Below, piece after piece: positions 29,680 to 62,828 of a stretch of DNA of 64,000 bases. The notes below the pieces were generated by a model. That model searched no databases, was not told the origin of the DNA, and saw only the letters and a program-made list of their open reading frames with translations. Each line of letters opens with the position of its first letter. Positions within the stretch are counted from its first letter, which is position 1. The stretch is from a virus. The translations under genes and the position numbers were made by a program. The stretch lies in the IMG/VR virus record IMGVR_UViG_3300008952_002784, positions 62,001 through 126,000 of that record. The stretch is one strand, 5' to 3'.

Positions 29680-32145
29680 ATGTCAATAATTCCGCTTACA
29701 TCAGATAATTTTGAATTATTCAAATTAACTGCAAATCCTAAGCGAACATTTACTTCAGGAACAGCAGGAGCAACAGGATCTATACCTGTCTTTCCTCGTG
29801 CATCAAAGATAGAAAAAGATCCCCAGCCCTCTGATGATTTTGGAACAGGCTCTTTTGATGCATCGCAAATTGAAGAGTCTAGAAATCAAGCACTAAGCAA
29901 TTCTTTCCTAACTGGAACACAAGTTGCTGATATTAGTAAGTCTGTTGAATATTATATGGAGATGGTTAACTCCGGAACGTTCTCTCCTGTTCGCCAAAAA
30001 AAGTTAGATATTCTAAGATTTGAGCCGTCTTATAAGTTTACCAGTGACACACTGAGAAAAAATGTAGTTCAGAACATTATGTTTCCGTACTATAAGCATC
30101 GTTACCCTGATTTAGACTGGTCATATTACAATTATCACACATTGAACTTTTTCACAGCGTCAACAGTGCCAAGTGACTCTGTTCTGATATATCCTGCATC
30201 GGGAAATTCGTCGACAAATGATTACCCGTACACCCCATCAGATGGATTTACATTTGAGTTTTGGTTGAATGCAAGGTATTCTAATGATGTCTCCGGTACA
30301 TCTTATACTCCGGGTACTATATTTCACAAATCATCATCATATGCAGTTTCATTAGTTTCTGGAACGTCACGTGATAAGGACGGATTAGTTGACGGCTTTA
30401 GAATTCTTTTGCAGCTAAGCCACAGTGCAGATATTCCGCCGTCTAACATATTGACTACTGGAACGCTCAAGACGAACATTGATGGAACTTCTTTCAAGAA
30501 GGCTGATACCTACTCAGGAAGTGTATCTGGAATAGGTGATCTAATATTCTTGTCTAGTGATAATATGATACAAAAGAACAAGTGGCATCACGTAGCAGTT
30601 CGCTGGGGAGGTCCCAATATCAACAAAGGGACTGGTTCATTTGTCATAGACGGAATTGAAGATACACGTTTCATAATACAATCCTCGTCAATAATGCCAA
30701 CCACATTTTCAAGATCAGGACAAGGTGAGTCTGATTGTCTATTTGTAGGCAATTATTTTGAAGGTGTCAATAATGGTGATGATGATTGGGGTGGAAGTGT
30801 TACTGCACAATTCTTCAATGTCAATGCATCAAAGAAAGATGGCTTGGTAGACTTTTTTCACGGAAAGTCATCATTAGACTCAGCAGATTCTAGAGATCCG
30901 TCGTCTGTATTTTTTCAACACCCACTCAATGCAGAAGTTCACAATCTCAAAATATACTCAGAGCATAGAGATACAGAGCAGATATTCACTTCCAGTATGT
31001 ACGGTGATGAGTCTATAGAAGATAAGCTTCTATTTTTACTACCGCCATTTTTCGTAAAAGAGACAAATACAAGAGACGTGATGCTCACGCCATTCGAAAC
31101 AGAAGAGACAACTACAGATGATCCATTTAATGTATCATTGTCATTCGGTGTAGGCGGCCATCTCATTAATTTAGAAAACTTCTCAAGAGAGTTTGTCAGA
31201 AAGTCTTACCCAAGGCTTTATAATCTAACAGCATCAGTAGTTGAATCTTCTACTGGTGAATTCACAGCAAATCAATTTTTATACAAGACAGGATCAGCCT
31301 CAAAGAGAAATCTTACAGTACTGCCGTGTGATAATGGAAAATTTACCCCTAACTTTACGCTTTTGAAGTCTGGATCTGATCCCGACAATCCCACTTCATC
31401 TGACGAAACATCAAAATTTGTAGATGACATGGGCTTTGCGAAGTATGGTCTTATATCACTTCGCAATATGGTGTCGACATCCTCACTTCCGAGTGGGGCA
31501 CAGTCAACAGGCTCTATCGCAGATGTTTTACAGGGCGCAGGTCCAGAAGACCCAGGAGTCAGTGCAGGATCTATTCTTACAATTCTAAACAGAACACGAG
31601 ATCCCTCATCTAATGAAGTTGTATTTTTTGATGTGTCAAACATGTTTTATGGTAGAAAAATAGTTCCAGGGACATTCAAACTTTATGACTCGAGTGTAAC
31701 AGGTTCTGACGGCAAAGTCAAGATGACAATAAGAGATGACGGCAACGGTCGTCTATATCGCGCAGATAGTAGAACCACTAACGCAACGTGGAATACAATT
31801 GGAAACATCTTGTACGAAGAGGGTATTGTTGTAATAAAGACACCAAACATTCCTTTGCTTGGCATAGATGGTTATGAGGTATCATTGACAGGAGAACATA
31901 ATGTATATGTCATGGAAATGAATATTCCGTGCCCTAAGGGACTAGCCAACTCTTCGTCTAATCCAAACTGGATGCCCCTTAAGCCCACAGACTCTTCAAA
32001 TGAGTTAAGGGATCAGTTTACATACATAACCGGAATTAATCTTCACGATGAAAATCTCAATGTTATAGCTCGAGCAAACCTTTCCCAACCGGTTGTAAAA
32101 AGAGAAGACGATAGATACCTCTTTAGATTCAAGATGGATTTTTAG
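29680..32145 (+). CDS. LamG-domain tail protein
   Basis: An 821-residue protein. Residues about 188-435 form a LamG/concanavalin-like domain with long insertions: DGFTFEFWLNARYS opens it, NKWHHVAVRWGG is the hallmark centre strand, and EVHNLKIYSEHRDTEQIFTS closes it. The N-terminal 150 residues are helical and contain VRQKKLDILRFEPSYKF and a Tyr-rich stretch (YYKHRYPDLDWSYYNYH). The C-terminal module matches that of the preceding protein (ending FRFKMDF). It is the third LamG-bearing gene here. The ATG at 29680 is used; the ATG at 29670 opens only a 12-codon frame. The stop overlaps the GTG of the resolvase gene by one base (TAGTG). Confidence 0.65.
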   Translation: MSIIPLTSDNFELFKLTANPKRTFTSGTAGATGSIPVFPRASKIEKDPQPSDDFGTGSFDASQIEESRNQALSNSFLTGTQVADISKSVEYYMEMVNSGTFSPVRQKKLDILRFEPSYKFTSDTLRKNVVQNIMFPYYKHRYPDLDWSYYNYHTLNFFTASTVPSDSVLIYPASGNSSTNDYPYTPSDGFTFEFWLNARYSNDVSGTSYTPGTIFHKSSSYAVSLVSGTSRDKDGLVDGFRILLQLSHSADIPPSNILTTGTLKTNIDGTSFKKADTYSGSVSGIGDLIFLSSDNMIQKNKWHHVAVRWGGPNINKGTGSFVIDGIEDTRFIIQSSSIMPTTFSRSGQGESDCLFVGNYFEGVNNGDDDWGGSVTAQFFNVNASKKDGLVDFFHGKSSLDSADSRDPSSVFFQHPLNAEVHNLKIYSEHRDTEQIFTSSMYGDESIEDKLLFLLPPFFVKETNTRDVMLTPFETEETTTDDPFNVSLSFGVGGHLINLENFSREFVRKSYPRLYNLTASVVESSTGEFTANQFLYKTGSASKRNLTVLPCDNGKFTPNFTLLKSGSDPDNPTSSDETSKFVDDMGFAKYGLISLRNMVSTSSLPSGAQSTGSIADVLQGAGPEDPGVSAGSILTILNRTRDPSSNEVVFFDVSNMFYGRKIVPGTFKLYDSSVTGSDGKVKMTIRDDGNGRLYRADSRTTNATWNTIGNILYEEGIVVIKTPNIPLLGIDGYEVSLTGEHNVYVMEMNIPCPKGLANSSSNPNWMPLKPTDSSNELRDQFTYITGINLHDENLNVIARANLSQPVVKREDDRYLFRFKMDF

Positions 32146-32705
32146 TGATTATTTTAGGTTTAGACATATCTACATCTAGTACTGGCTGGTGTATAATATC
32201 ACAATCAGGTGATGTTATTGAAAAAATCGAAATGGGATTTATTGATTTATCTAAAGAAAAAAGCATGTTTCGCAAAGCCAGGATTGTCAAAGATCAATTA
32301 ACACGATTGCACATCATGTATTCTGTAGATCGTGTATGCATAGAAGAAAATTTACAATCATTCCGTTCTGGGTTTTCTTCAGCTCAAACACTTTCTACAC
32401 TAGCAAGATTCAACGGAATGGTATCATATCTGTGTTATGAAGAATTCTCGTACGATCCCGAATTCATGAATGTCAATACAGCAAGAAAGAGTATAGGTAT
32501 TAAGCTTATTCGAAAGAAAGACGGCGGAAAACCAACCAAAGATCAAGTTCTAGAGTGGGTATCAGCTCTAAGTGAGCTAGAAGGTTATTCGTGGCCAACA
32601 AAGACACTCAAAAGTGGCCCTCGAAAAGGCAAGACTATACTAGATCCAAAATGCTTTGACATGGCCGACGCATATGTTATGGCGAGAGCAGCTGCAACAG
32701 CTTAA
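32145..32705 (+). CDS. RuvC-like Holliday junction resolvase
   Basis: A 186-residue RNase H-fold nuclease. The first strand carries the catalytic Asp7 (LGLDISTSSTGW), the fourth strand the Glu pair at 66-67 (VCIEENLQS), and the C-terminal helix the last acidic residues Asp172 and Asp175 (DMADAYVMA); together these are the four metal-binding acids of the RuvC family. Length equals that of bacterial RuvC (about 170-190). It would cut branched DNA before packaging or during recombination, the job that endonuclease VII (gp49, an unrelated fold) does in T4. The start is GTG, overlapping the upstream stop by one base; no ATG fits before Asp7. The next genes are primase and the Mre11-Rad50 fusion, which supports a recombination role. 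Confidence 0.85.
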   Translation: MIILGLDISTSSTGWCIISQSGDVIEKIEMGFIDLSKEKSMFRKARIVKDQLTRLHIMYSVDRVCIEENLQSFRSGFSSAQTLSTLARFNGMVSYLCYEEFSYDPEFMNVNTARKSIGIKLIRKKDGGKPTKDQVLEWVSALSELEGYSWPTKTLKSGPRKGKTILDPKCFDMADAYVMARAAATA

Positions 32706-32737: not shown

Positions 32738-33706
32738 ATGAGTAGTTATAATGATAAATTGATGCTAGTCAGACGTGCCTTTGGGGCATGCGAGCTTAGC
32801 AGAGATAAAGTAAATGTTGCTGTTCGCTGCCCAAACTGTAATGACAAAAATGACTTTAAGAAAAAACTAGTTATCAAAATCGAAGACGGAATGTTTCATT
32901 GCTGGGTTTGTGGAATTAAGGGGAGGCGAATTGACAGACTTTTTCGTAAATTCGCCATATCACACACAGACAATGCTAGAAAATTATTTAGATGCACGAG
33001 CAATTACGAAGAAAGTATTATCAAAGATGAAGAAGAAGTTAAAGTTTCGATACCTAGCGGCTTTCAATTACTTGGTCGTGTCATGAATGCTAAGGATCCT
33101 GACATTCAAGAAACAATTCGATATGTAAAATCACGAGGTCTGACCCTTAGGGATATATGGTATTATAGATTAGGAACATGCTCAGCAGGAAGATTTCGAC
33201 GTCGTGTAATCATTCCATCTTTTAGTGAAGATGGAAAATTGAATTATTATTCAGGAAGAACTATCGATGCTGACAATTCTAGAAAGTATATGAATGTCGC
33301 AGTATCAAAGAATAAGATTATCTTTAATGACATTAACATTGACTGGCAGAAAGACTTGACATTAGTTGAGGGGCCTTTTGACCTTATGAAATGTAGAATG
33401 AATTCAACATGCCTTCTAGGGTCTCAACTATCAGAATCATCAGACTTATTTCGAAAAATTATAAAGAATCAAACTTCAGTCACATTAGCTTTAGATCAAG
33501 ATGCAATTGTTAAATCTCACAATATTGCAAAATGCTTGAGTGAATTTGGAATTAGGGTTAGAATGCTGAACATACCAAGTACAAAAGATGTCGGCGATCT
33601 AGATGCTGATATTGTTTCAAAGCTATATTCTAAATCTACGTTGTGGAATAGTAATGATAGACTTCGAAGTATGATCAAATCAATGAGTACAGGCTCTTTG
33701 CTATAG
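32738..33706 (+). CDS. DNA primase (zinc ribbon plus Toprim)
   Basis: A 322-residue DnaG-like primase similar in length to T4 gp61 (342). An N-terminal zinc ribbon uses Cys31/Cys34 (CPNC) and Cys55/Cys58 (CWVCG). The Toprim domain has the glutamate Glu211 (LVEGPFDLMK) and the Asp253-x-Asp255 pair (ALDQDA), the metal-binding residues for RNA primer synthesis. No helicase domain is fused, so it is a stand-alone primase that would need a separate phage or host helicase; none is in the window. The gene has its own 32-base leader (unusual in this tightly packed genome) and is followed after 11 bases by the Mre11-Rad50 fusion. Confidence 0.85.
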   Translation: MSSYNDKLMLVRRAFGACELSRDKVNVAVRCPNCNDKNDFKKKLVIKIEDGMFHCWVCGIKGRRIDRLFRKFAISHTDNARKLFRCTSNYEESIIKDEEEVKVSIPSGFQLLGRVMNAKDPDIQETIRYVKSRGLTLRDIWYYRLGTCSAGRFRRRVIIPSFSEDGKLNYYSGRTIDADNSRKYMNVAVSKNKIIFNDINIDWQKDLTLVEGPFDLMKCRMNSTCLLGSQLSESSDLFRKIIKNQTSVTLALDQDAIVKSHNIAKCLSEFGIRVRMLNIPSTKDVGDLDADIVSKLYSKSTLWNSNDRLRSMIKSMSTGSLL

Positions 33707-33717
33707 ACAGGAAACGA

Positions 33718-36700
33718 ATGAGTTTAAAATGTGTACATATTAGTGACATTCACTGGCGAGGATTGACTCGACATGATGAGTATGTCGAGTCATTTACAGC
33801 AATGTTTGACAATATAAAAGCTCTAAACCCAGATGTAATATTCATTGGTGGCGATATTGTTCATTCTAAGACACAAGGCATATCCCCAGAGATTATCGAC
33901 AAGCTTACCTGGTGGTTTACTATGATGGCAGATTTGTGTCCAACACACATCATTCTGGGTAATCATGATGGGCTTATATTGAATAAGAGCCGACAAGATG
34001 CAATAACTCCAATTATTAATGCAATTGATAATGACAATCTATTTTTATATAAAAAGTCCGGAACATACCCAATTGGTGTCCCGGGATTCAACTGGTGTAT
34101 ATTTTCTTGTTTTGATGAAGAAGGGTGGAAAGATGTCAAGCCAACCCCGGGTGACATCAATATTGCAACGTTTCACGGGGGAGTTAACGGATCGACAACA
34201 GACATAGAGTGGGAAATCGAAGGGGACGTTGACTTAGACTTTTTCGATGACTATGACTTTGCATTCTTGGGTGACATACACAAGGTCCAGTACCTTGACA
34301 AAGAAAAGCGAGTGGCCTACCCCGGATCTACAATTCAACAAAATTACGGTGAAGATCCAGGTAAAGGATTTCTATTCTGGGAAATTGAAGATAAAGACAC
34401 ATACAAAAGCACGTTCTACGAAATACCGCACAGTAAGCCATTCGTAACTATTGACTGGACTGGTGATGTCAGAACAACAGTAGAAGAAGCATTAAAATAC
34501 CCAGTAGGCGCTAGATTTAGAGTTAGAGTTGCTTCTCACATAAATCAAACTGAAATAAAACACTTGCACAGTGCCCTTAAGGATTATAGAAATGCAACTG
34601 AAATTGTTTTCAAATATGATAAAAAATCAGATCTTTCAGTTGTCTCAATCGATTCAGGAAAAATACACACCCAAGATCTTCAAAGTGTTTCAACACAAAC
34701 ACGATTAATGCGTGAGTATTACAAAAGTATGAACCTTTCAGACGAAGAGTGGAAAAGATTAGACAAATTAGTATTACAATATACATCGAAAGCTATAAAA
34801 AAAGATGCAGCAAGAAATATAAAGTGGACAATCAACAAGCTAGAATTTGATAATTTATTTTCATATGGCAAAGATAATGTAATTAATTTTGATTCAATGA
34901 CCGGAATCACTGGAATATTTGGAAAGAATCGATCAGGAAAATCGTCGATCCCAGGATCTTTGATGTACGGCTTATATAACACTACAGATCGAGGATCGAT
35001 TTCTAATTTGCATGTAATCAATATGAGGAAAGGCTATTGCCGAGCTCGAATTTATATGAGTGCTAATGGAAAAAATTACTTGGTAGATCGTCAATCTACC
35101 AAGAAGTCTAATAGAAAGGGAAAAATTAGCGCTACTACACACTTAAACTTAAGCGAAGTTGATGAATCTGGAAATGTAATAGTTGACATGAATGGCGAAC
35201 AGAGAAGAGCAACTGAAAAGACGTTGAGGACTCTGGTGGGCACACCTGAAGATTTCCTGATGACATCATTAGCTAGTCAGGGAGAAATGAATAACTTTAT
35301 CAAGAATGGCGCAACCCAAAGAAAGTCAATATTGACTAAATTCTTGGATTTGAATATTTTCGATGATATGATGGCTTTGGCTAAAGATGAATCTTCGCAA
35401 ATTAAAGCGCTGCTTAGTAGTTCATCAGATAGAGACTGGGATACATTAATTACAGAAAAGGGAATTGACAAGCGATCGAACGTACGATTGCGCCTAGATT
35501 TAGAGAATAATCTGACTAAGCTTCGTTCGAACATGGAAGAACTTAAGATATCTATGGCAACGAGCAAAGACAGTGAGCTAGTAACACAAATTGATATCGA
35601 CAAGCAACAAGAAGCTATTGAGTTATCACAATCTGAACTTAAGTCAATAGAGGAAAACTGTAATAAAATAAACAAAAGCATAGCGTCAGTACAATCAAAA
35701 ATATCATCAATTCAGACACTCAAGAGTCAATTTCCAATTGATGATCTCACAGAACGATATGAAGCACAGCAAGATTTAGAACGGGCATTGACAGATTTGA
35801 GTCATATTCATGAAAAGTCAAAGATTCTTCTCAAGGGACAAAAAAAATCTGTCAAGATTTTAGAAGATGTTCCATGCGGGGATCAATTTCCCAAGTGTAA
35901 ATTTATAAAAAATTCACACACTGCTAAGAAAAAAATAGACGAACAACAAAATCTCGTCAAAGAAAATTATGACAAAGTTAAATCTGCAAAAAAATCATTG
36001 AATACTCTCAAGAATGAATGCTTGCATGATAAAATTGAAAAATATGATGCAATATTGAGAAAAGAGAGTTCGCTACAAATAAATCTAAGAGATGAAAAAT
36101 TGTCACTCTCTGCAGTAGTATCTAGAAGAAAAATTGTAATAGATTCAATATCTGATGCTAGCAGAGATTTGCAAAGCATGAAATTAAGGGCTTCTGATAC
36201 TGAAGACGCAAAGAAAATGAGTTATGCTAGAAAAGAAATCCAGGCACTCACTGATCAGATCAATGACTTAGACACACAAAGAAGTGAATTAACAAAGACA
36301 GTAGGTCGACTTGATGCAGAGATTAAGAGCTTGAAAGCGGAGAAAGAAAAATATAATGACTTGATCCTCAGGTGGAAAACTTATACTCTATTCATGAATG
36401 CTGTGTCAAAAAAGGGAATTCCCTTGCAAATAATGTCAGCTCAGCTTCCAGTAATAAATGATGAAATATCAAAGATATTGCAGGGTGTTGTAGGATTTAC
36501 TGTAGAGCTCGAAGCAGACCCCAATTCCAATCAAATGGAAATATATATTAACTACGGCGATTCTAGAAGAATTATTGAATGTGGTAGTGGCATGGAGAAA
36601 ATGATGGCATCTTTGGCAATTAGAGTAGCACTTATCAATATGAGTGCCCTTCCAAAGCCGGGACTGCTTATCATTGATGAAGGGTTTGGGGCTCTAGATG

Positions 36701-36858
36701 ACATGAATGTTGAATCATGCGGGCGATTATTGAACTCACTCAAGCAGTGGTTTAGAAATATTTTAGTAATATCTCATGTTGATGCTGTAAAAGACATGGT
36801 AGACAATGTACTGCCCATAACCCAAAAAGAAAAGAATTCTATGGTGAAGTATGAATAA
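33718..36858 (+). CDS. Single-chain Mre11-Rad50 (gp47-gp46) recombination nuclease
   Basis: A 1046-residue fusion of two proteins that are separate in T4 and in bacteria (SbcD and SbcC). Residues 1-345 are an Mre11/SbcD metallophosphoesterase: Asp10-Ile-His12, Asp46 (GGDIVHS), Asn82-His83-Asp84 (LGNHDG), then FHGGVNG and LGDIHK. After a linker, residues about 370-1046 are Rad50/SbcC: Walker A Gly402-Lys-Asn-Arg-Ser-Gly-Lys408-Ser409, two long coiled-coil arms, a hook at 720-727, signature SGMEKMMASLAIRVAL from 957, and Walker B LLIIDEGFGALDD (Asp987, Glu988). It would resect double-strand ends for recombination-dependent replication and late DNA processing. No stop codon or frameshift separates the halves. 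The gene overlaps the next by 8 bases. Confidence 0.92.
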   Translation: MSLKCVHISDIHWRGLTRHDEYVESFTAMFDNIKALNPDVIFIGGDIVHSKTQGISPEIIDKLTWWFTMMADLCPTHIILGNHDGLILNKSRQDAITPIINAIDNDNLFLYKKSGTYPIGVPGFNWCIFSCFDEEGWKDVKPTPGDINIATFHGGVNGSTTDIEWEIEGDVDLDFFDDYDFAFLGDIHKVQYLDKEKRVAYPGSTIQQNYGEDPGKGFLFWEIEDKDTYKSTFYEIPHSKPFVTIDWTGDVRTTVEEALKYPVGARFRVRVASHINQTEIKHLHSALKDYRNATEIVFKYDKKSDLSVVSIDSGKIHTQDLQSVSTQTRLMREYYKSMNLSDEEWKRLDKLVLQYTSKAIKKDAARNIKWTINKLEFDNLFSYGKDNVINFDSMTGITGIFGKNRSGKSSIPGSLMYGLYNTTDRGSISNLHVINMRKGYCRARIYMSANGKNYLVDRQSTKKSNRKGKISATTHLNLSEVDESGNVIVDMNGEQRRATEKTLRTLVGTPEDFLMTSLASQGEMNNFIKNGATQRKSILTKFLDLNIFDDMMALAKDESSQIKALLSSSSDRDWDTLITEKGIDKRSNVRLRLDLENNLTKLRSNMEELKISMATSKDSELVTQIDIDKQQEAIELSQSELKSIEENCNKINKSIASVQSKISSIQTLKSQFPIDDLTERYEAQQDLERALTDLSHIHEKSKILLKGQKKSVKILEDVPCGDQFPKCKFIKNSHTAKKKIDEQQNLVKENYDKVKSAKKSLNTLKNECLHDKIEKYDAILRKESSLQINLRDEKLSLSAVVSRRKIVIDSISDASRDLQSMKLRASDTEDAKKMSYARKEIQALTDQINDLDTQRSELTKTVGRLDAEIKSLKAEKEKYNDLILRWKTYTLFMNAVSKKGIPLQIMSAQLPVINDEISKILQGVVGFTVELEADPNSNQMEIYINYGDSRRIIECGSGMEKMMASLAIRVALINMSALPKPGLLIIDEGFGALDDMNVESCGRLLNSLKQWFRNILVISHVDAVKDMVDNVLPITQKEKNSMVKYE

Positions 36859-37141: not shown

Positions 37142-37519
37142 ATGAAAGAAATACATGTCCGAGCAATTGGTGAAGCGCTTAATACAACTTTTGGTCGAGA
37201 AAGTAGTCCAACAGGTAAGCAGTCAATAACATACTCACAGCACGGAGAGAAGTTAGTACTTAAGTTTACTTCAATCGTACACTTTGCTGAAGAGAGAGGA
37301 CTGCACATGCAGGTTGATAATATTGCCCATGAGGCAGTTCAATTACTGACAACTAAGCTAGCTGAACTTAAGTCATATTTTAAAGAAAGAACCGGCGAGA
37401 CTCTCAAGCTCAAAGAGCAGGGTAATAATGACAACATTGAATTAATTAGTGGTTCATCAAATTCACCTCGCAAGATAGCATATTATAAACGAAATCATAT
37501 ATTTCAAATACAGATGTAA
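37142..37519 (+). CDS. Hypothetical protein upstream of terminase
   Basis: A 125-residue protein with a mixed alpha/beta N-terminal domain (HVRAIGEALNTTFGRES, then GEKLVLKFTSIVHFAEERGL) and a helix (EAVQLLTTKLAELKSYFKER). It has the AGGAG site required for its ATG and its stop overlaps the terminase start (TAATG), so the two are translated together. Position suggests packaging: it is where a small terminase subunit might sit, but I see no helix-turn-helix and no similarity I can state to gp16, so that is only a possibility. Confidence 0.45.
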   Translation: MKEIHVRAIGEALNTTFGRESSPTGKQSITYSQHGEKLVLKFTSIVHFAEERGLHMQVDNIAHEAVQLLTTKLAELKSYFKERTGETLKLKEQGNNDNIELISGSSNSPRKIAYYKRNHIFQIQM

Positions 37520-39114
37520 TGGCCCCAACGACTAAGCAAAGGCAAATTAAAGAAATAGTCAAGTGCGGCAAAGACCCTGTTTATTTTATAAACCGATACC
37601 TGAAAATACAGCACCCAACCCGGGGCTTAATTCAATTTGACACTTATCCATTTCAAGATGAATGTATTAACGACTTTAATGAGCATAGATTCAACATAAT
37701 CTTAAAGTCTAGACAGTTGGGTATATCAACAATATCTGCAGCATATGCTGTTTGGCTTGGGTGCTTTTATAGAGATAAGTCTATTCTGATTATAGCAACT
37801 AAGCTTGCAGTTGCACAGAATTTTATTAAGAAAGTAAAGGTCGCAATTAGAAGCATGCCCAAGTGGCTTTTAGTCCCGGAAATTGTATCAAACAACAAGC
37901 AGACAATTGAATTTAGCAACGGTTCACAGATTAAAGCAGTTCCAACATCTGATGATGCAGGTCGTTCTGAAGCATTGTCGCTTCTAATTGTAGATGAAGC
38001 TGCTTTTATTAGGAATTTTGATGAGTTATTTACAGGATTATATCCCACACTAACTACCGGTGGCCGCGCTGTTATTCTCTCAACACCGAACGGAGTGGGT
38101 GGACAGTATCATGATCTTTGGATAAAAGCAGAGTCAGGAGAGAATGAGTTCAACCCAATTAAGCTTCCATGGGATATCCACCCAGACCATGATGTTGAGT
38201 GGTTCAAGAATGAATCTAAAAACTTGACTAAAAAGCAAGTAGCACAAGAGTTGTTGTGCGACTTTGCAGCTTCAGGTGACACAGTACTCAACAATGATGA
38301 TATTGAGTGGCTTGGATCATCGATACGACCACCAATTGAGAGGTGGGGACCAAACATGTCAGTCTGGGTATGGAAATACAGCCTCAGTGATCATCAATAC
38401 ATAATTTCAGCTGATGTTTCTCGGGGCGACTCTGGTGACTATAGCACATTTCATGTAATAGACACAGGGGAATCAGAAATTGTTGCTGAGTTCAAGTGCA
38501 AAATCCCGCCAGATCAATTTGCAATACTTTTGGCAGAGGCAGGTAAAAGATATAACACCGCGGTCTTATGCCCGGAAAATAATACGTATGGTTACGCTGT
38601 GATCATGAAATTATGTGAGCTAGATTATCCCAATCTCTATTATAAGAATGAAAAGGATAAATTTGCAGCTCTTTATGGAACTGGTGAAGTTGAGATTCAC
38701 AAGATAGGCTTTACAACATCGGGCAAATCTAGAAATCAAATACTGACTAAGCTTGAGCAGGTCATAAGAAACAAAGAAATCAAGTCATACTCTTCGAGAC
38801 TTTATGAAGAAGCTAAAACATTCATATGGAAGGGTCATAAGGCTCAAGCACAAAAAGGGAAGAACGATGACCTAATAATGTCATTAGCAATTGGGTTGTG
38901 GCTTTTTGATACTTCCCCAGTACATAGTCGTCATTCTTATGACCTAAATAAAGCAATGCTTGAAGGCTTTGGGGTAAATTCGAATAGTAAAGACACAATA
39001 GTTAACCCATGGGCCGGAAAAAATTATAACCCATTCAAGACATTTTCCGTTCAGACTATGCCAGAGTCAGGAAGCATTACCCCATATGGAGACATGTCGT
39101 GGTTACTTAAGTAG
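37519..39114 (+). CDS. 17: Terminase large subunit, gp17-like
   Basis: A 531-residue DNA-packaging motor (T4 gp17 is 610). The ATPase domain has the deviant Walker A SRQLGIST (64-71), Walker B LLIVDEAAF with Asp159-Glu160, and the coupling motif STPNG (188-192). The C-terminal nuclease is RNase H-like: Asp299 in IISADVSRGDSGDYS, the CPENNTYG strand with Glu353, and a final acidic GKNDDLIMSLAIGLW. It cuts concatemeric DNA and pumps it through the portal, whose gene follows. The ATG overlaps the previous stop. No intein or intron is seen in this gene, although large-terminase genes are frequent intein targets. Confidence 0.95.
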   Translation: MAPTTKQRQIKEIVKCGKDPVYFINRYLKIQHPTRGLIQFDTYPFQDECINDFNEHRFNIILKSRQLGISTISAAYAVWLGCFYRDKSILIIATKLAVAQNFIKKVKVAIRSMPKWLLVPEIVSNNKQTIEFSNGSQIKAVPTSDDAGRSEALSLLIVDEAAFIRNFDELFTGLYPTLTTGGRAVILSTPNGVGGQYHDLWIKAESGENEFNPIKLPWDIHPDHDVEWFKNESKNLTKKQVAQELLCDFAASGDTVLNNDDIEWLGSSIRPPIERWGPNMSVWVWKYSLSDHQYIISADVSRGDSGDYSTFHVIDTGESEIVAEFKCKIPPDQFAILLAEAGKRYNTAVLCPENNTYGYAVIMKLCELDYPNLYYKNEKDKFAALYGTGEVEIHKIGFTTSGKSRNQILTKLEQVIRNKEIKSYSSRLYEEAKTFIWKGHKAQAQKGKNDDLIMSLAIGLWLFDTSPVHSRHSYDLNKAMLEGFGVNSNSKDTIVNPWAGKNYNPFKTFSVQTMPESGSITPYGDMSWLLK

Positions 39115-39178: not shown

Positions 39179-42100
39179 ATGTCAAAGAAACCCGCGAATT
39201 TATTCGTTAGATTAACTAAATTATTTAGATCCGGCCCGGTAATCAAGAAGAAGGTGAAAAACTATGAACCTTCGTCTACATCAACTGCGCTTGAAATATT
39301 TAAGCAATCACACAGCGATGTCTACAATAGTACACTGTCAAGCTACGGTCAATTTGACAGAATGTGTCTAGATCTGAATACTATGATTGCTGTTCCAGGC
39401 ATAGAGAAGTATGTAAGTCTTGGAAGCTTAATCGATCAGTATGCGGATGGAGAAAAGTTTATTGTTTATGCATATGATCACGAAATACAGCAAATTGTTC
39501 CAGCATGGGCACATCACCCAAGATCCTCGGGCATTAGAAAAACTGTAAAAATAACATTTGACGATGGATCAAATTTGATTTGCACACATGATCATCCTTG
39601 TATGATGAGAGATGGATCTTTTGTAGAAGCTGCCAAACTTAATAAAAATGATTCAATGATGCCATTTTATCGCAAAGATTTTTCAGGCGGTGAAAGTGGA
39701 TATTATAATATCTACACAATGGAGAAGCATGGGTGGAACGGATGGACATCTGAGCATAGATTAATTGCAGAGTGGAAAGAGGAGAGAAGTGTCGAAAGAA
39801 AATCAGAGCACGTTCACCATAAAGACTTTAATCCTTCTAACAATACACCTGAAAATTTAGTGATAATGAATGCTCATGATCATTTGTCTATGCATGCTAA
39901 ATTAGCAACGCATATGAAATCGCCAAAGATGAGAGAACATCTTTCAAGACTTCAAAAAGAAAAGTGGGCGAATGATGATGGAACAAGAAGAAAGAACTTA
40001 GTCTCATTCAATAAGCGTTCTGACATTATTGAAAAGAGGCGACAGCATGCTACTGAAAATAACCAATCTAAAAACCCAAGTGTAGCAAAGAAAATATCTG
40101 AAAAAGCTATCAAAAGATATTCTAACCCTCACTGGAAAGAGTTTGCTTCTAAGCAAACATCTAGATTACACAAAGAAGGGAAGCTTAAAGTTACAAAGAA
40201 CTTTAGCAATTACTGGTCTGGGAAAACCCGACCACAAGCTTGGAAAGATGCTAGATCTGGAAAAGCAAATCATGCATTTGTCAATATTGAAAAAGATGAT
40301 TTGATAGACGCTATCCTTAGACATACAAAAAGAAAAGATGTTGCCATAGAAATGGGAGTATCACCCAGCACAGTAAAAAGAAGAGCAAGTGATCTATTTG
40401 ATCTAAACAGCTGGAAAGAAATAGTTGAACATGTACATCTTAGCTATCAAAATCACAAAGTAATCTCTGTAGAGCCTTGGGTATCACTAGAGACCGGAGA
40501 CATAACAGTCGATGGGTATGAAAATTTTGCTACAGACACAATAATTGTACATAATTCTCGCTACGGAGATTTTTCAGAAATGGAATCAACGCCTGAGATT
40601 GCTTCTGCACTAGACATATATGCAGAAGAGTGCGTATCACCATCTGCTAGCGGAGAAGTATTACACATCCACTCAGACAATCGAAAGATTCAAGAGATTC
40701 TCGAGGGATTATTTCATGATACACTAAACGTCGACTTCAATCTTGTAATGTGGGTAAGAAATCTTGTAAAGTACGGAGACTTCTTTTTATTCAACGATAT
40801 TTCACCAGAGTATGGTGTCATAAATGCATTCCCAATAGCAATATCAGAAATTGAAAGAGAAGAAGGCTTTGATAAGGATGATCCTGCAGCTGTCCGTTTT
40901 CGCTGGATTACTCAGGGCAATCAAGTATTAGAAAACTGGCAAGTATCTCACTTTAGACTTCTTGGTAATGACGCTTTTCTTCCTTACGGATCATCTGTTT
41001 TAGAATCGTCTCGCAGAATTTGGCGGCAATTAATTCTGATCGAAGATGCGATGTTAGTGTATCGAGTCATTCGTGCTCCTGAGCGACGAGTATTTTATAT
41101 TGATGTGGGTAATGTTCCGCCTGAAGATGTTGGAAATTATCTTGAGCAAGCAAAAACTAGCCTCAAGCGGAATCAGATTGTTGATAAAGATACTGGAAAA
41201 GTTGACCTGAGATACAATCCGCTTTGTATATATGGCGATAATAAAGTTCCTCTCTTAGATGGACGCACAATAAAAATAAAAGATTTGGTTGCTGAGTGGA
41301 ATGACGATAAAAGAGATCAAGAAGTATATTCTGTCAATCTCAAAGACGGAGGCACAATTGTTCCTGGAAAAATAATCTGGGCAGGAAAAACTGGAGAAGT
41401 AGAAAAGTTAATAGAAGTAGAGCTTGACGATGGTGGTTTGTACAGGGTAACGCCTGATCACAAGTTGATGCTACGAGATGGTAATCCAATAAAGGCAAAA
41501 GATCTGAAGCTTGGTGATTCGTTGATGCCGCTCTACAGACGTTATCAAGATATTTCACCAAATAAAAAGAATGCAAAGTATGAGCAAGTATATGTTCCAA
41601 AGCAAGATAAATTTGTGTACACACATCGTGTCGTTGCTGCTAGTAAGTACGATATAGCACTCAATGATGCATTTTTGCGTGTCAAGGATCATGTTGTTCA
41701 TCATGCAAATTTCAATAAGCATGATAACTCATCAGATAATTTGGTGTTAATGGAGCGAGATGAACATTCAAGATTACATGCAGAAATAGGTAGAAAGCAT
41801 CTGGTTAGATACAACAAATCAGATGAAAAAAGAAAGAAGCAGACTAAGTGGAATATTGAAAGAAATTCTATTGAAGCAATGTCATGGTATAACGGATCTG
41901 AACTTCATAAATCTCACAATAAGGCTCGAAAAGAAGCACAGCTTAAGTCTTGGGCGAGCAATAAAGAAAAGCGTTCAAAAGCAATGCGCTATAATTTTGA
42001 TGATGTATGTGTACAACTTTTAGGTGACATAGCTAGACAGCTAGACAAAAAAGTGAGCTTTGAAAATTTTGCTAATCTTGTTCGACATGATGAAACTTTT

Positions 42101-44833
42101 ATGTCACATTATAGGCACATTAATGAACATATCAAGCGTACACCAGAAAAATCTATACATAGAGGAAATTTACGAACCAAGCTTAAAGAAAAAGGATTTG
42201 CGAATTACTATGCATTTTTGACTGCATTCAATCCTAAGATAATGGGTCACAAGTTTGTTAATAATATAGTGCATGAAAAAGAAAAACAGTACACAAACCA
42301 CAAAGTTACTGCGATTAGAGAGATTATTACAAAAGAATCAGTTTATAATGTGACTGTAGAAGGCAATTTCAACCTTGGAATTGCTTCTTATAACGATATT
42401 GACAATCAAAAAAGTTCAATAATTACATATCAGTCGGTTGACGAAGATTATTTCCTTCCGGTTCGAGGTGGCGAGTCTGGTACTAAGATTGATACTCTCG
42501 CCGGCGGTCAAAACACAGCCGCGATTGAAGATGTAGAATACATTCAAAAGAAGCTTTTTGCAGCGCTCAAGATACCGAGAGCATATCTCGGTTATGACGA
42601 AGATGTCGGTTGTCTCACTGGAGACATCATGGTTGATCTTCTAGATGGCAGACAAGTTTCAATGAGCGAGCTTGTGAATGAATACGAGCAAGGAAAAAAC
42701 AACTGGGTGTATTCATTTGACTTAGACGGCACCCCAAAACCAGGCAAGATTTCGAATGCTTGGAAAACAAAAGACGTTACAGAACTATATGAGATTGAGC
42801 TAGATAATGGTAAGAAAATTAAGTGTACCGCTAATCATCCTTTCCTGCTCAAGCGAGGAGTGTATGTTCGAGCAGATGAACTTAAAGAAGACATGCCGTT
42901 GATGGCACTATATTCTCGTGATTCTAAAAAAAGCCTTAAGGATTATGAACAGATCTTCGATCACAATACTAGGAACTGGATTTATACACACCGAATGGTA
43001 AATGAGAACACTGAAATACCTATCCACGATTCAGCTGGCAAAGAAGACTATGACGTAGTTCATCATGCAACATTTGATAAGAAGAATAATAGTCCGGACT
43101 CGTTGTTGTTGATGGGTAGAAAATCACATATTAAGCTACATGCTGAGCATGGTGAAAATTTATTATCTGAAGTCTCCAGAGACAGATTACGCGAGGTGAT
43201 GAAATCCGAAAGCTATAAAATAAATCATATCAAAGGGGTTCAGGAAGCTTGGGATAATGATAAAGGTAATCGCCGCGCCAAACTATCAACAGATAATAAA
43301 AAATATGACAAAATTGACTTGATGACTTCACGTCTGCGCGAATTGATAAATTTAGGGAAGCTAAATCCATCTGAGTGCCTAAAGCAACCCCGCCCAGATT
43401 TTTCTGTCATTGTTGGTTCTGTCAAGGCTGGTAATCATACTCTAGAGATGATCTGCAATGATATTGGGTTTGGTCCTGTTGTTACTGCTGAGATTATCAA
43501 GACTGAGTGTGGGTCATGGAATGAATTTGTCGATATACATGATACAAAAGCTAGCCGCAAAGGCAGAGCATTAAGACACTATAATATTGTAAAAGCAAAA
43601 GAATTAGCAGCAACTTGCAAAACAAGAAAAGAATTCCATAACCGAAATATCGTATCCAGAACTGCTCATGAAAACCAGCTTACTAAGCACGGGCTATCTC
43701 CAACAGCCTGGTATAGCGAAAATATTGGAGCCTTCAATCACAAAGTAGCATCTGTGAAAAAGCTGATATTGACTGCCCCTATCCCTGTATTCGATATTCA
43801 GGTTGAGGGATGGTCAAACTTTGTCGTTGAGAATTCAATTGTCGTTCACAATTCTAAAGCTACGCTAGCTCAAGAAGATATCAGATTTTCTAGAACAATT
43901 CAGCGAATACAAAAAACAATTGTTTCAGAGTTGAATAAGCTGGCAATGATTCATCTTTACGCACATGGATATGAAGGTGAAGATCTAGTCGACTTTGTAA
44001 TTAAACTTTCTAATCCGTCGTCAATTGCACAGCAGCAAAAACTTGAGCTAATCAGGTCTAAATTTGAAATTGCAGGCACAGCTCCGGAGGGTTTAGTTGA
44101 TCGAAATTGGATTCGCAAGAATGTTCTAGAGTTGACAAAACAAGAAATTGAGTTCATAGAAGAGGGTAAGGTACATGACAAGCTTCGTGATGTAGAGCTT
44201 GAAGCTACAGGAGCTGAAGAATCTGCAGACACCCCTGCTGGTGATACTCCCGGTGGCGAAGAAGGTGGCGAAGATCTATTTGCAGGCGATACAGCACAGG
44301 GGTCGTTATTAGTCGCCACCCCCGGACCTAACAGATCAACAAAAATAGATGACAAAGATGACGATGACGAAGATGTAGATGAGATTGATCTGTCTTCTTT
44401 TTCTATAGAAGATTTAAATGCACCCACTAAAATTCAGAATAGAATAAGAAATGTCTTTAATGAGCCCATTCGAAACTCTAGAAAAAACACGTCAGGCCCT
44501 GGGTCCACACATATGCCTGACTTTCATAAGATGACGTCCATTGGTAGGTCTGGCCGAAGACAAGACACTCTTAATAAACCGTTTGATGATGATTTCATGA
44601 AAGATCCCTTTGGGGAGTCTATATTTCCGAAAAGTCCGACGATTGATAATTTCATCGACAACAAAATAAAACAGAGCAATAAAATGACACGTGAAATGGA
44701 GTCAGTGATACAGAATCTAGAAGGTATGTTCAGTGTTGGCAAGACGTCCATACTTAATGAAGACATAGATTCATCTATAGCTGATGAAGATCTAGGATTT
44801 GAAGTTACTGATGACAATGAGAGTGAAGAATGA
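39179..44833 (+). CDS. 20: Portal vertex protein, gp20-like, with three in-frame inteins
   Basis: A 1884-residue precursor. Removing the three inteins (63-459, 683-1085, 1145-1558) leaves a continuous 670-residue portal protein; T4 gp20 has 524, the excess being a long acidic, probably disordered C-terminus (DDKDDDDEDVDEIDL). The extein segments read without gaps: FDRM joined to SRYGDFSEMESTPEIASALD, RYNPL to SVDEDYFLPVRGG, and DEDVG to SKATLAQEDIRFSRTIQRIQ; these are conserved portal segments (T4 has SMTEDYWL and TRDELTFAKFIRELQ). The portal is the 12-subunit ring through which DNA enters and to which the neck attaches. All three inteins must be spliced out for a working ring. It overlaps the next gene by ATGA. 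Confidence 0.93.
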   Translation: MSKKPANLFVRLTKLFRSGPVIKKKVKNYEPSSTSTALEIFKQSHSDVYNSTLSSYGQFDRMCLDLNTMIAVPGIEKYVSLGSLIDQYADGEKFIVYAYDHEIQQIVPAWAHHPRSSGIRKTVKITFDDGSNLICTHDHPCMMRDGSFVEAAKLNKNDSMMPFYRKDFSGGESGYYNIYTMEKHGWNGWTSEHRLIAEWKEERSVERKSEHVHHKDFNPSNNTPENLVIMNAHDHLSMHAKLATHMKSPKMREHLSRLQKEKWANDDGTRRKNLVSFNKRSDIIEKRRQHATENNQSKNPSVAKKISEKAIKRYSNPHWKEFASKQTSRLHKEGKLKVTKNFSNYWSGKTRPQAWKDARSGKANHAFVNIEKDDLIDAILRHTKRKDVAIEMGVSPSTVKRRASDLFDLNSWKEIVEHVHLSYQNHKVISVEPWVSLETGDITVDGYENFATDTIIVHNSRYGDFSEMESTPEIASALDIYAEECVSPSASGEVLHIHSDNRKIQEILEGLFHDTLNVDFNLVMWVRNLVKYGDFFLFNDISPEYGVINAFPIAISEIEREEGFDKDDPAAVRFRWITQGNQVLENWQVSHFRLLGNDAFLPYGSSVLESSRRIWRQLILIEDAMLVYRVIRAPERRVFYIDVGNVPPEDVGNYLEQAKTSLKRNQIVDKDTGKVDLRYNPLCIYGDNKVPLLDGRTIKIKDLVAEWNDDKRDQEVYSVNLKDGGTIVPGKIIWAGKTGEVEKLIEVELDDGGLYRVTPDHKLMLRDGNPIKAKDLKLGDSLMPLYRRYQDISPNKKNAKYEQVYVPKQDKFVYTHRVVAASKYDIALNDAFLRVKDHVVHHANFNKHDNSSDNLVLMERDEHSRLHAEIGRKHLVRYNKSDEKRKKQTKWNIERNSIEAMSWYNGSELHKSHNKARKEAQLKSWASNKEKRSKAMRYNFDDVCVQLLGDIARQLDKKVSFENFANLVRHDETFMSHYRHINEHIKRTPEKSIHRGNLRTKLKEKGFANYYAFLTAFNPKIMGHKFVNNIVHEKEKQYTNHKVTAIREIITKESVYNVTVEGNFNLGIASYNDIDNQKSSIITYQSVDEDYFLPVRGGESGTKIDTLAGGQNTAAIEDVEYIQKKLFAALKIPRAYLGYDEDVGCLTGDIMVDLLDGRQVSMSELVNEYEQGKNNWVYSFDLDGTPKPGKISNAWKTKDVTELYEIELDNGKKIKCTANHPFLLKRGVYVRADELKEDMPLMALYSRDSKKSLKDYEQIFDHNTRNWIYTHRMVNENTEIPIHDSAGKEDYDVVHHATFDKKNNSPDSLLLMGRKSHIKLHAEHGENLLSEVSRDRLREVMKSESYKINHIKGVQEAWDNDKGNRRAKLSTDNKKYDKIDLMTSRLRELINLGKLNPSECLKQPRPDFSVIVGSVKAGNHTLEMICNDIGFGPVVTAEIIKTECGSWNEFVDIHDTKASRKGRALRHYNIVKAKELAATCKTRKEFHNRNIVSRTAHENQLTKHGLSPTAWYSENIGAFNHKVASVKKLILTAPIPVFDIQVEGWSNFVVENSIVVHNSKATLAQEDIRFSRTIQRIQKTIVSELNKLAMIHLYAHGYEGEDLVDFVIKLSNPSSIAQQQKLELIRSKFEIAGTAPEGLVDRNWIRKNVLELTKQEIEFIEEGKVHDKLRDVELEATGAEESADTPAGDTPGGEEGGEDLFAGDTAQGSLLVATPGPNRSTKIDDKDDDDEDVDEIDLSSFSIEDLNAPTKIQNRIRNVFNEPIRNSRKNTSGPGSTHMPDFHKMTSIGRSGRRQDTLNKPFDDDFMKDPFGESIFPKSPTIDNFIDNKIKQSNKMTREMESVIQNLEGMFSVGKTSILNEDIDSSIADEDLGFEVTDDNESEE
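39365..40555 (+). mobile_element. Intein 1 in portal gene, HNH homing type
   Basis: Residues 63-459 of the precursor, 397 residues. It starts with Cys63 (CLDLNTMIAV, block A) after Arg-Met, has block B Thr-His-Asp-His-Pro (LICTHDHPCMM), and ends in Val-His-Asn459 followed by Ser, the normal class 1 splice junction. Between the splicing halves is an HNH homing nuclease (His-His-Lys-Asp-Phe-Asn, Asn-Asn, ENLVIM, His-Asp-His; 39809-39900), basic NUMOD-like segments, and a helix-turn-helix (DVAIEMGVSPSTVKRRASDL, 40328-40401) that probably recognises the homing site. All splicing residues appear intact, so it should be active. Confidence 0.92.
41225..42433 (+). mobile_element. Intein 2 in portal gene, HNH type, Tyr-Gln C-terminus
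   Basis: Residues 683-1085, 403 residues. It begins with Cys683 (CIYGDNKVPLLDGR, block A), has block B Thr-Pro-Asp-His (VTPDHKLML), an HNH nuclease (HVVHHANFNK to SRLHAEIG, about 41689-41785) and block F YNVTVEGNFNLGI. The end is unusual: IITYQ followed by Ser, where His-Asn is normally found, so the terminal residue is Gln1085 and the residue before it Tyr. The junction is fixed by the surrounding portal sequence (RYNPL then SVDEDYF). Inteins that end in Gln are known and can splice, often more slowly, so the element may be active but weaker. Confidence 0.88.
42611..43852 (+). mobile_element. Intein 3 in portal gene, HNH homing type
   Basis: Residues 1145-1558, 414 residues. It starts with Cys1145 (CLTGDIMVDLLDGRQ), has block B Thr-Ala-Asn-His-Pro (IKCTANHPFLL), and ends IVVHN1558 followed by Ser, a canonical junction. 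The HNH region (VVHHATFDKKNNSPDSLLLM, near 43050-43152) resembles that of intein 2 but has Asp-Ser where the others have Glu/Asp-Asn before Leu, so its nuclease may be weakened. The N-terminal 200 residues are clearly related to intein 2 (shared DLLDGR-type start, VVHHA, LHAE), suggesting the two are paralogues. Confidence 0.9.
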
Positions 44834-51309: not shown

Positions 51310-53175
51310 ATGAGCAAAAGCTTTTCACTAGATCAACTTACTGAAGGGATTCGCCAGCGCCACCTGGGATCTCAAAATCGTAGGTTGATAGAAAAATGGG
51401 CCCGTACGGGTCTTCTTCGTGGCCTCGAGGGTGTACATCGTGAAAACATGTCACGCATGCTCGAGAATCAGGCAGCGCAAGTCCTTAAGGAAGCTTCCTC
51501 ACTCTCTACGGGTGGAGGTGCACTTGCTACCTCTGGCGACCTACGCGGTTTCACAAACATCGCATTCCCACTTGTACGTCGTGTTTTCGGCGGACTAGTT
51601 GCAAATGAGTTGGTATCAATTCAGCCGATGAGTCTTCCTTCGGGGCTTCTTTTCTATCTGGACTATACGTACGGATCTGAAGAAACGAACATAAGCGACG
51701 TTTCAGACGGTGTATCTATTTACCCATCTGGATCATCTATCTATAACAGCCCAACTGGTAAGGGTGTCCGTTCTGGTTCACTTGCAGTTGGTGGTCAGTA
51801 TGATCTAGCTGGTGTAGGATTCTCTAGAGTTCATGAAAATGTCGCCGGCGTTACACTTAGTGCTTCTGGTGCTATGGGTGGAACATCTAAGCAGATTTAT
51901 TCTGTTGCTAAGGTGATGACAACATCAGGTTCAGATGGAAGACTTCTTCAATTCGATCCTCAAATCACTAGCGATATTGAAGATGGAACAGGACGTTATT
52001 CACTAGCAATTGTTGACTTAACTACTGGATTTGGTAATGCAGATCTTAGTCTGGTCAAAGAGTTTGCTTTGCATCTTAACGGTGGCTCAAGCGCGGGTGT
52101 CAAGAATGTGCGTGCTGGTGTCCAAGATGGTAACAACATTGTAAATGTTAGACGTTTGAATCAGCTGGGTACATTTGCTAGTAGCAAGTTTACTTCTGAT
52201 CCTTTAGTTACGACTGCTACAGCCAATGCAGCAATGCTAATGGTTGTTTCTGGTGTTGTTACAACTACAGACAATGGTAACTTAGATGTGATTATACCAC
52301 AGTCTCCATCTCTTAGCACTGCTGATGATGGATCAACTTTGACTATACCATCATTTGAGTCTAACTTTGGTGCAACTCCGAGTCCGTCTATTCCAGAGAT
52401 TGATATCAAGATTGAGTCTATCGCTGTTACGGCTGCAACTCGTAAGTTACGTGCCAAGTGGTCCCCAGAGCTTGCTCAGGATCTGAATGCTTATCACAGC
52501 CTTGACGCTGAGGTTGAGCTAACCCAGATTCTTTCTGAGCAGATTGCTCTAGAGCTTGATCGGGAAATTCTCAATGACCTTCTTACACAAGCCAACGGTG
52601 CTAACCTTTATTGGTCACGTGCTCCCGGACGCTTTGTACATAAGGAGACAGGTGCTATTCAGTCTAGAGGCTCAACACTTGAACCAGGCCCAGCTTTCAC
52701 TGGTACAGTTCGTGAGTGGTATGAGACGCTAATTGAAACAGTCATTGACGTTGCAAACACGATTCATCGTAAGACCCTTCGTGGTTCTGCAAACTTTATC
52801 GTTGTAAGTCCTGACGTCGCAACTATCTTAGAAGCTTCGGTTTTCTATCGTCCATCTTATAGCCTTGATGGTGATGGTCAGGTAAGTGGTCCGATGACTC
52901 TGGGTGCTGAGAAGGTTGGTACTTTGAGCAACCGTTTCACAGTCTATAAAGATCCTTACTTCCCACGCAACAAGATTCTTGTTGGTTATAAGGGCGGTAG
53001 TTATCTTGAGACTGGTTATGTATATGCTCCTTACGTTCCACTTATTGTTACTCCTACGATATTCGCGCCTGAGGATTTCACTCCTCGCAAAGGTGTAATG
53101 ACTCGTTACGGTAAGAAAATGGTTCGTAGTGACTTCTACGGTACAGTTACAGTTCTGGACTTGAATATCATCTAA
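51310..53175 (+). CDS. 23: Major capsid protein, gp23-like
   Basis: A 621-residue HK97-fold major head protein (T4 gp23 is 521). Hallmarks are SGDLRGFTNIAFPLVRRVFG, then NELVSIQPMSLPSGLLFYLD (near residues 75-120) and the C-terminal FYGTVTVLDL. The N-terminus has a candidate maturation site, Leu59-Lys-Glu61 then Ala62, matching the Leu/Ile-x-Glu rule of the gp21 protease and the T4 cut after residue 65; cleavage here would leave 560 residues. An insertion of about 100 residues with Ser/Thr/Gly-rich turns (near 170-300) may form a surface domain. It has the best ribosome binding site of the area (TAGGAGAAA) and its end is closed by a strong terminator, as expected for the most abundant protein. 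Confidence 0.95.
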   Translation: MSKSFSLDQLTEGIRQRHLGSQNRRLIEKWARTGLLRGLEGVHRENMSRMLENQAAQVLKEASSLSTGGGALATSGDLRGFTNIAFPLVRRVFGGLVANELVSIQPMSLPSGLLFYLDYTYGSEETNISDVSDGVSIYPSGSSIYNSPTGKGVRSGSLAVGGQYDLAGVGFSRVHENVAGVTLSASGAMGGTSKQIYSVAKVMTTSGSDGRLLQFDPQITSDIEDGTGRYSLAIVDLTTGFGNADLSLVKEFALHLNGGSSAGVKNVRAGVQDGNNIVNVRRLNQLGTFASSKFTSDPLVTTATANAAMLMVVSGVVTTTDNGNLDVIIPQSPSLSTADDGSTLTIPSFESNFGATPSPSIPEIDIKIESIAVTAATRKLRAKWSPELAQDLNAYHSLDAEVELTQILSEQIALELDREILNDLLTQANGANLYWSRAPGRFVHKETGAIQSRGSTLEPGPAFTGTVREWYETLIETVIDVANTIHRKTLRGSANFIVVSPDVATILEASVFYRPSYSLDGDGQVSGPMTLGAEKVGTLSNRFTVYKDPYFPRNKILVGYKGGSYLETGYVYAPYVPLIVTPTIFAPEDFTPRKGVMTRYGKKMVRSDFYGTVTVLDLNII

Positions 53176-62600: not shown

Positions 62601-62828
62601 CCTGAGACACGTGCGAGGTTTGTCAATCAGGCAGCACCTCTTCTTGCACTAGTCCAAGCTCAAGCGGGAATTGAATCCTTTAGGGTTGTCATGGATGACA
62701 CTAATAACACAGAGGCAGATAGAGAATCAAATAGATTGAACGGAAGAATAATAATTGTTCCTACTAGATCGATTGAGTTTATATCAATCGACTTTGTGGT
62801 CACAAATAGTGGGGTTTCATTCGAGTAA
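59634..62828 (+). CDS. 18: Tail sheath protein 1, gp18-like
   Basis: A 1064-residue sheath subunit, much longer than T4 gp18 (659). The N-terminus (MAEQTFKSPGFFEQEIDLSA, then GTPAGVIGTSEKGPAFVPVT) and the C-terminal core (KSALDRVNVRRLLLEVKRLI, then NVARGLLFEQNTPETRARFV and SIEFISIDFVVTNSG) are the conserved ends of contractile sheath proteins that interlock neighbouring subunits. The extra length lies in the middle, Gly/Ser/Thr-rich inserted domains that would face outwards. Hundreds of copies would be made per particle set; the start follows AAGGAGAG. A second sheath-like gene begins 48 bases downstream. Confidence 0.93.
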   Translation: MAEQTFKSPGFFEQEIDLSATRATPLGTPAGVIGTSEKGPAFVPVTVGSYADFESKFGTLDSNRFGPYAVREFLKYKKSATYLRVLGAGANSTTADITTTRNKGTVKNAGFYVGGTATTSMGSAGGHRGVVQFLCAEHSVNFAHEQAGYPVFSDNDSFTGKFGSRSADGTVNLVRAVLFTTTGSRFEVIDGNQRYTDAGGLTGLSDANGGMDDLAGIYDLGLGDPRTATGAGHFKLVLSCSAGTSFANDESASGRRIYTASLDPSDKNYVGKILNTDPWKFQEQQHLLYLDFAVENELASGSLNPGSVALLSGSTSTTSTGGDTSTQFLQLFGRYDTRYTTPQTPEIISQPYGKTEYDLFRFETISDGAWGNDKVKISIANLRASSDPKNKYGTFDVQVRKFDDTDLNTQIVEHYPKCTLDPNDERYIARQIGDKKVYYNFDADEPDERRLVIHGKYPNRSNRIRVVMNSKLEAGEVPQEALPFGFRGVPVLKTSDTLTDLGHLALKNEHNISIGETHSASNTRLSCSGSTNLTGSIVPPLPFRFKVTRGDVSQTHSGYVGQTGTNERVDSKLYWGVKFERMPVSSSSPSGDFSNSCLNSNVAALPNPLIKAYSKFGGIAKLDTVVTGGAADNFNNNKFTLARVALYNQLQSGHITHVSGTAKEHMLEAAYIRNGRPDPNTYTVDDPNNFSRVTLATLVHSSSTVFNRFTDYLKFSTMFYGGFDGLNILDKDSHLMRDRAASMDTGGKATTATPNIGLFTHVAGSGRNNNVVSSYKRAAQILTDPLASRINVLAIPGIRDSFVTDHVLSYVKDYGMAIYLMEMLNYDVDATRLYDDSKTKVNVQETVEQFDSRSIDNNYAAAYFPDVRINDPVNNRHVKVPASVVALGALAYNDKVSFPWFAPAGFNRGALDNVKNVSVRLNAADRDDLYDGRINPIAVFPNGGHVIFGQKTLQQAKSALDRVNVRRLLLEVKRLIVNVARGLLFEQNTPETRARFVNQAAPLLALVQAQAGIESFRVVMDDTNNTEADRESNRLNGRIIIVPTRSIEFISIDFVVTNSGVSFE

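Follow-up and report, generated by a model that had tools for sequence, protein, structure and literature searches.

A large uncultured myovirus very probably carries, as its recombination nuclease, a single-chain Mre11-Rad50 of the Mimivirus R555 type that would resect DNA ends for RecA. The gene encoding this fused Mre11-Rad50 (SbcDC) protein starts with ATG and comprises 1046 codons at positions 33718-36858 of the window, by which is meant the whole 64,000-nucleotide stretch of viral DNA analysed here; inspection of the sequence revealed a Shine-Dalgarno-like AGGAAA (33709-33714) 3 nt 5' of the ATG, and all window coordinates of the gene, its parts, and its neighbours refer to the + strand. 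As in R555-type fusions, an N-terminal Mre11/SbcD calcineurin-like nuclease domain (PF00149) with its invariant motifs, capping and helix-loop-helix regions, a short linker, and a C-terminal Rad50/SbcC ATPase with Walker A, signature, and Walker B motifs and coiled coils are found on one continuous chain.

The preliminary description of this DNA had read the frame as holding both an Mre11-type nuclease and a Rad50-type ATPase, and this is borne out by the ORF list and by matches to Pfam families Metallophos (PF00149; residues 4-189, 1.7e-12), AAA_23 (residues 374-661, 1.2e-8), and SbcC_Walker_B (residues 951-1006) and to PHROG 77 (SbcC-like; 6.4e-58). The parent IMG/VR record (G000; 136,953 bp) contains the same ORF with no internal stops. 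The chance that a sequencing or assembly error erased the stop and start separating two ordinary genes is negligible, given that the ORF recurs at 100% identity on two more IMG/VR contigs (L005 and L006) and that the junction is uninterrupted, with a linker of 8-10 residues, in more than 150 homologous loci at 42-100% identity. The loss of a stop/start at residues 345-370, the stretch singled out earlier as the place where an artefact might lie, is excluded because more than 150 further loci have a continuous frame there. ATGs at residues 331 and 338 were considered as internal starts for a free Rad50 and rejected, as they have no Shine-Dalgarno-like sequence.

Fusion is the standard state within this phage group, a finding that the preliminary description had itself named as refuting its claim, and the rarity at first supposed for it is not upheld. 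The search for other fused forms, proposed earlier as a check, found at least 593 relatives among the 600 IMG/VR candidates listed with a whole-protein profile, at least 585 among 600 with the Mre11 half, and at least 555 among 599 with the Rad50 head. ORF analysis covered the best 80 loci from each of these three scans; none has separate nuclease and ATPase genes and, barring genes cut by contig ends and the split loci described below, each has one ORF. A motif count gave 158 distinct fused ORFs, and tblastn showed that Microcystis phage Mel-JY01 and some huge uncultured phages also have homologues in fused form. On a 30-row tree, the 14 fused rows (one of them, L002, a split locus with its halves joined for the tree) are all divided by a 100/100 branch from the 16 separate phage or bacterial pairs. 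The best 80 matches of one scan of genome contigs included no fused ORF in cellular genomes and consisted of lone SbcC genes or SbcC/SbcD pairs encoded as separate genes, and a plasmid search gave no full-length match to the fused protein. The architecture itself is not novel, having been known since 2011, when Yoshida, Claverie, and Ogata reported Mre11/Rad50 fusions from Mimivirus and Bacillus phage 0305phi8-36, and also from plasmids, bacteria, and eukaryotes; they attributed abundant marine-virome homologues, with primases adjacent, to phages (Yoshida et al., 2011; PMC3175470).

The Mre11 half begins with the phosphodiesterase domain (residues 1-235; 33718-34422), delimited by PF00149, a 44-protein alignment, and an AlphaFold2 (AF2) model built on 44 relatives (mean pLDDT 83, pTM 0.50). 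A capping domain (residues 236-317; 34423-34668) follows in the model, and in Foldseek this region matches the nuclease and capping domain of Staphylococcus aureus SbcD (7dog). The helix-loop-helix element (residues 324-359; 34687-34794) was placed by AF2 secondary structure and by a profile match to E. coli SbcD that extends to residue 363, and by analogy with known MR complexes it would bind Rad50. Residues D10, H12, D46, H49, N82, H83, H153, D186, and H188 are invariant in all 44 aligned proteins. The statement that all catalytic motifs are present holds for every classical metal or catalytic residue except one: the position of Pyrococcus furiosus Mre11 His206 is occupied by Asp186 (GDIH), again in 44/44. 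T5-like SbcD has GDxH at the same place, and in Mimivirus R555 an Asp likewise replaces His206 (PMC3175470). Because of this replacement, the specificity of the nuclease could differ from that of classic Mre11. It might also be taken as a sign that the nuclease half is degenerate and that the protein is a structural, bridging SMC-like one, coiled-coil bridging being a known MR function. Such a role is highly improbable, however, as the remaining metal and catalytic residues are invariant across the 44 proteins, Asp is able to coordinate metal and is shared with both R555 and the GDxH of T5-like SbcD, and the nuclease domain is one of the better conserved regions of the fused protein.

The interdomain linker (residues 360-368; 34795-34821), defined by the AF2 model and the alignment, leads into the Rad50 N-terminal ATPase lobe (residues 369-525; 34822-35292), identified by Pfam, AF2, and motifs including Walker A GKNRSGKS. 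The model continues with coiled-coil arm 1 (residues 526-716; 35293-35865) and, beyond the hook, arm 2 (residues 731-896; 35908-36405), and the C-terminal ATPase lobe (residues 897-1046; 36406-36855), with signature SGMEK and Walker B LLIIDEGF, is assigned from Pfam, motifs, alignment, and AF2. The best Foldseek matches in the PDB are Rad50, SbcC, and SbcD chains from Mre11-Rad50(-Nbs1) (MRN) and SbcCD complexes. In the Foldseek ranking of viral models, full-length proteins of about 1000-1400 aa come first or nearly so; they belong to giant viruses (Tupanvirus, Harvfovirus, and Yasminevirus) and to phages (Tenacibaculum phages pT24 and PTm1, and Listeria phage LMTA-57). Two consequences had been proposed for the covalent connection, namely an obligate one-to-one stoichiometry and a changed opening of the ATPase heads. 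The first adds little because the canonical Mre11-Rad50 complex is already M2R2, and it has been abandoned by relatives whose gene is re-split within the nuclease domain. There is no hint of the second, because the linker length of 8-10 residues, found in 44/44 aligned relatives, is close to the 9-12 residues estimated for ordinary Mre11-Rad50 geometry (Yoshida et al., 2011; PMC3175470). The RNxxW signature at the junction, carried by about two-thirds of window-type and most Microcystis-type proteins, is not universal, because only one of seven L003-type proteins has it.

The coiled-coil hook, on which the preliminary description was silent, differs from that of canonical Rad50/SbcC. At its apex, DVPCGDQFPKCKFI (residues 717-730; 35866-35907; AF2 and alignment), the CxxC motif is absent and two cysteines, C720 (35875-35877) and C727 (35896-35898), are instead spaced C-x6-C. 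The CxxC of the Rad50 hook has been called "absolutely conserved" (PMC13402864) and is said to be conserved throughout all life forms, viruses included (PMC5093744). In the alignment, the apex VPC-GDQFPK-CKFIK retains both C720 and C727 in 44/44 proteins, with P725 in 42/44 and H734 in 38/44, and the conserved hook sequence of the clade is PCGDxFPxCKFIKDSH. In a wider set of 133 window-type proteins, C-x6-C is found in 129, CxxC in two, and neither in two; the addition of L361, which was found via Mel-JY01, has the C-x6-C hook, and lies inside the window clade on the tree, brings the total to about 130 of 134 group proteins. The CxxC is retained by all nine separate phage Rad50s, by the four bacterial Rad50s inspected, and by the other fusions, both Microcystis-type (17/17, L361 aside) and L003-type (7/7). 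Measured by the majority residue, conservation of the 20-residue hook (0.76) is similar to that of the ATPase C-lobe, the values for the flanking coiled coils being 0.38-0.44. The C-x6-C hook appears to be a derived variant that has been strongly conserved. It seems to be new and apparently undescribed, no description having been found in the limited library of literature searched. A tblastn search with the hook segment among named phages returned nothing significant. The two window-type fused proteins with CxxC, L233 (CTYC) and L244 (CRFC), are possible reversions or basal forms.

A DNA-pattern search for the C-x6-C hook also exposed loci in which the fused gene has been divided again. This second division, like the hook, seems to be new. 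In this sister subclade, the split lies within the Mre11 domain, in the loop that follows motif V (GDIHK). Motifs I-V are contained in ORF1 (about 220 aa), whose C-terminal sequence is ..REVELVIDExDLxKYPGAEVIE; ORF2 (about 860 aa) starts with MSKKIKIRxKKPWIAYPGSTVQQNY and encodes the remainder of Mre11 together with Rad50. In many pairs the ORFs overlap by 4 nt (NTGA), with GAGGTGAT immediately 5' of the ORF2 start. The tail of ORF1 resembles the head of ORF2 around YPG, a likeness that may have arisen by duplication of an edge strand. The net charge is -3 to -9 for the ORF1 tail and +1 to +9 for the ORF2 head in 26/26 split pairs, which do not amount to 26 independent cases because the pairs are related; the halves would reassemble via these acidic and basic ends. 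Split members include L506, L394, L397, L454, L464, L489, L491, L493, L507, L527, L559, L376, L381, L534, L087, and L002. At least six changes are needed to account for the split state on a tree of 86 rows, and 22 of the 23 split rows fall within one 38-row clade that also contains continuous genes, L002 lying outside it.

Traces of homing endonucleases accompany these splits. In L506 (2973-7071), a complete ORF of 295 aa that matches homing-endonuclease PHROGs 559 and 3339 stands between the halves; remnants were found in L559 and L087 (shorter) and L527 (deleted), and L002 has a different endonuclease-like ORF. The split loci L527 and L559 are near-identical at the cassette borders and more diverged in the flanks, which is the pattern of co-conversion. 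A self-splicing intron was considered for L002 and rejected, there being no Rfam match worth naming. The window itself has a free-standing homing endonuclease (53280-54695) directly after the gp23-like capsid gene, matching the same two PHROGs (3339/559) as the gene-splitting ORF of L506. Phage genes cut at homing sites have precedents in Aeromonas phage Aeh1 nrdA with mobE, T4 gene 39/60 with mobA, and phage 25 gene 43 (PMC2988022). These cases serve as a model for the split subclade in that an essential phage gene is cut in a critical region to give two polypeptides, but the subclade differs from them in that the cut falls in the Mre11 domain of a fused protein, the new ends are oppositely charged, and the endonuclease is mostly gone. 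The chances seem evenly balanced that the C-x6-C hook joins the coils through a geometry or metal site other than that of CxxC and that Mre11 is a recurrent homing target in this clade, with translationally coupled chains that reassemble through their acidic and basic end strands.

The fused gene has conserved neighbours. A RuvC-like resolvase (32145-32705) and a DnaG-like primase (32738-33706), both identified by Pfam and PHROG, are found in 89 and 92 of 97 long loci, respectively, and the terminase large subunit downstream (37519-39114; Pfam) and the portal in 97/97; the order in most is RuvC, primase, fused gene, small ORFs, terminase, and portal. Nine longer records of the group (178-289 kb) each have exactly one MR match, and encode RecA (9/9), a DnaB-type helicase (9/9), and a match to family-A polymerase (8/9, seven above the family cut-off). 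No match to RecA, DnaB, or polymerase was found in the window's own 137-kb record, which is probably a fragment. T4 gp46/gp47, which resects ends for UvsX (PMC3016280), is also annotated as required for host-DNA degradation, and the fused protein could thus be imagined as a counter-defence or host-takeover nuclease in place of a replication or recombination enzyme. This is very unlikely in view of its conserved single copy beside primase and RuvC, as would be expected of a core recombination gene, and of the RecA and replisome genes in the longer records. By analogy with T4, the fused protein most likely processes DNA ends for replication and repair that depend on RecA.

Two fused chains would most likely make up the usual M2R2 assembly, in which the Mre11 domains would dimerise and ATP would close the Rad50 heads. 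Each Mre11 helix-loop-helix is expected to clasp the base of the adjacent Rad50 coiled coil in cis via the 9-residue linker, an arrangement suggested by the length of that linker, and the coiled-coil tips would be joined by the C-x6-C hook, perhaps with bound zinc. DNA ends would then be resected to 3' tails for the phage RecA, with the polarity presumed, and these tails may feed recombination-dependent replication and repair as gp46/gp47 does in T4.

Several other genes in the window and its record were noted. The portal (gp20-like) ORF (39179-44833) runs to 1884 codons and includes an HNH domain as well as three intein-splicing stretches; the portal ORF of the relative L007 has 683 codons. 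The major capsid protein (51310-53175; 621 aa) and the tail sheath (59634-62828; 1064 aa) are both long, with their best family matches C-terminal. Elsewhere in the same phage record are a DUF444-SpoVR-PrkA triplet (L339:10796-15301, 5' of the window) and a PhoH ATPase with a fused N-terminal PIN domain (L340:826-2124).

Among known systems, the published R555 (PMC3175470) is the closest in design, with Mre11 preceding Rad50 on one chain, capping and helix-loop-helix regions kept, a short linker, and GDxxH in motif II along with the Asp at the P. furiosus His206 position; its homologues are reported to be common in viral metagenomes, where they lie close to phage primases. The window protein differs in being phage-borne, shorter (1046 versus 1351 aa), part of a large monophyletic phage clade, and equipped with the C-x6-C hook. 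The shared Asp replacement and the Foldseek matches to giant-virus proteins point towards kinship with R555. The fused protein of Microcystis phage Mel-JY01 (WWT39521.1, named "AAA domain containing protein") is full-length at 1066 aa, with 29.7% identity, and is encoded beside a primase-like gene, but it has a classic CxxC hook (CKHC). T4 gp46/gp47 and the SbcC/SbcD of Herelleviridae, cyanophages, and T5-like phages have the same two activities and a presumed role in recombination or replication, but are encoded by separate genes, several with a small intervening ORF, have CxxC hooks, and lie across the 100/100 branch from the fusions. E. coli SbcCD and archaeal and eukaryotic Mre11-Rad50 have fold and motifs in common with the fused protein but consist of two polypeptides, with a CPVC hook in the bacterial examples checked.

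The fusion itself chiefly confirms the inference of 2011 that fused genes are abundant in viruses, to which full-length genes seen in their genomic context are now added. With about 120 kDa in a single chain, the fused protein is a compact form of MR suited to structural studies, as the preliminary description proposed. The clade matters more, since it provides a natural test of whether the Rad50 hook can dispense with CxxC, and of whether the Mre11 nuclease domain must be a single chain.
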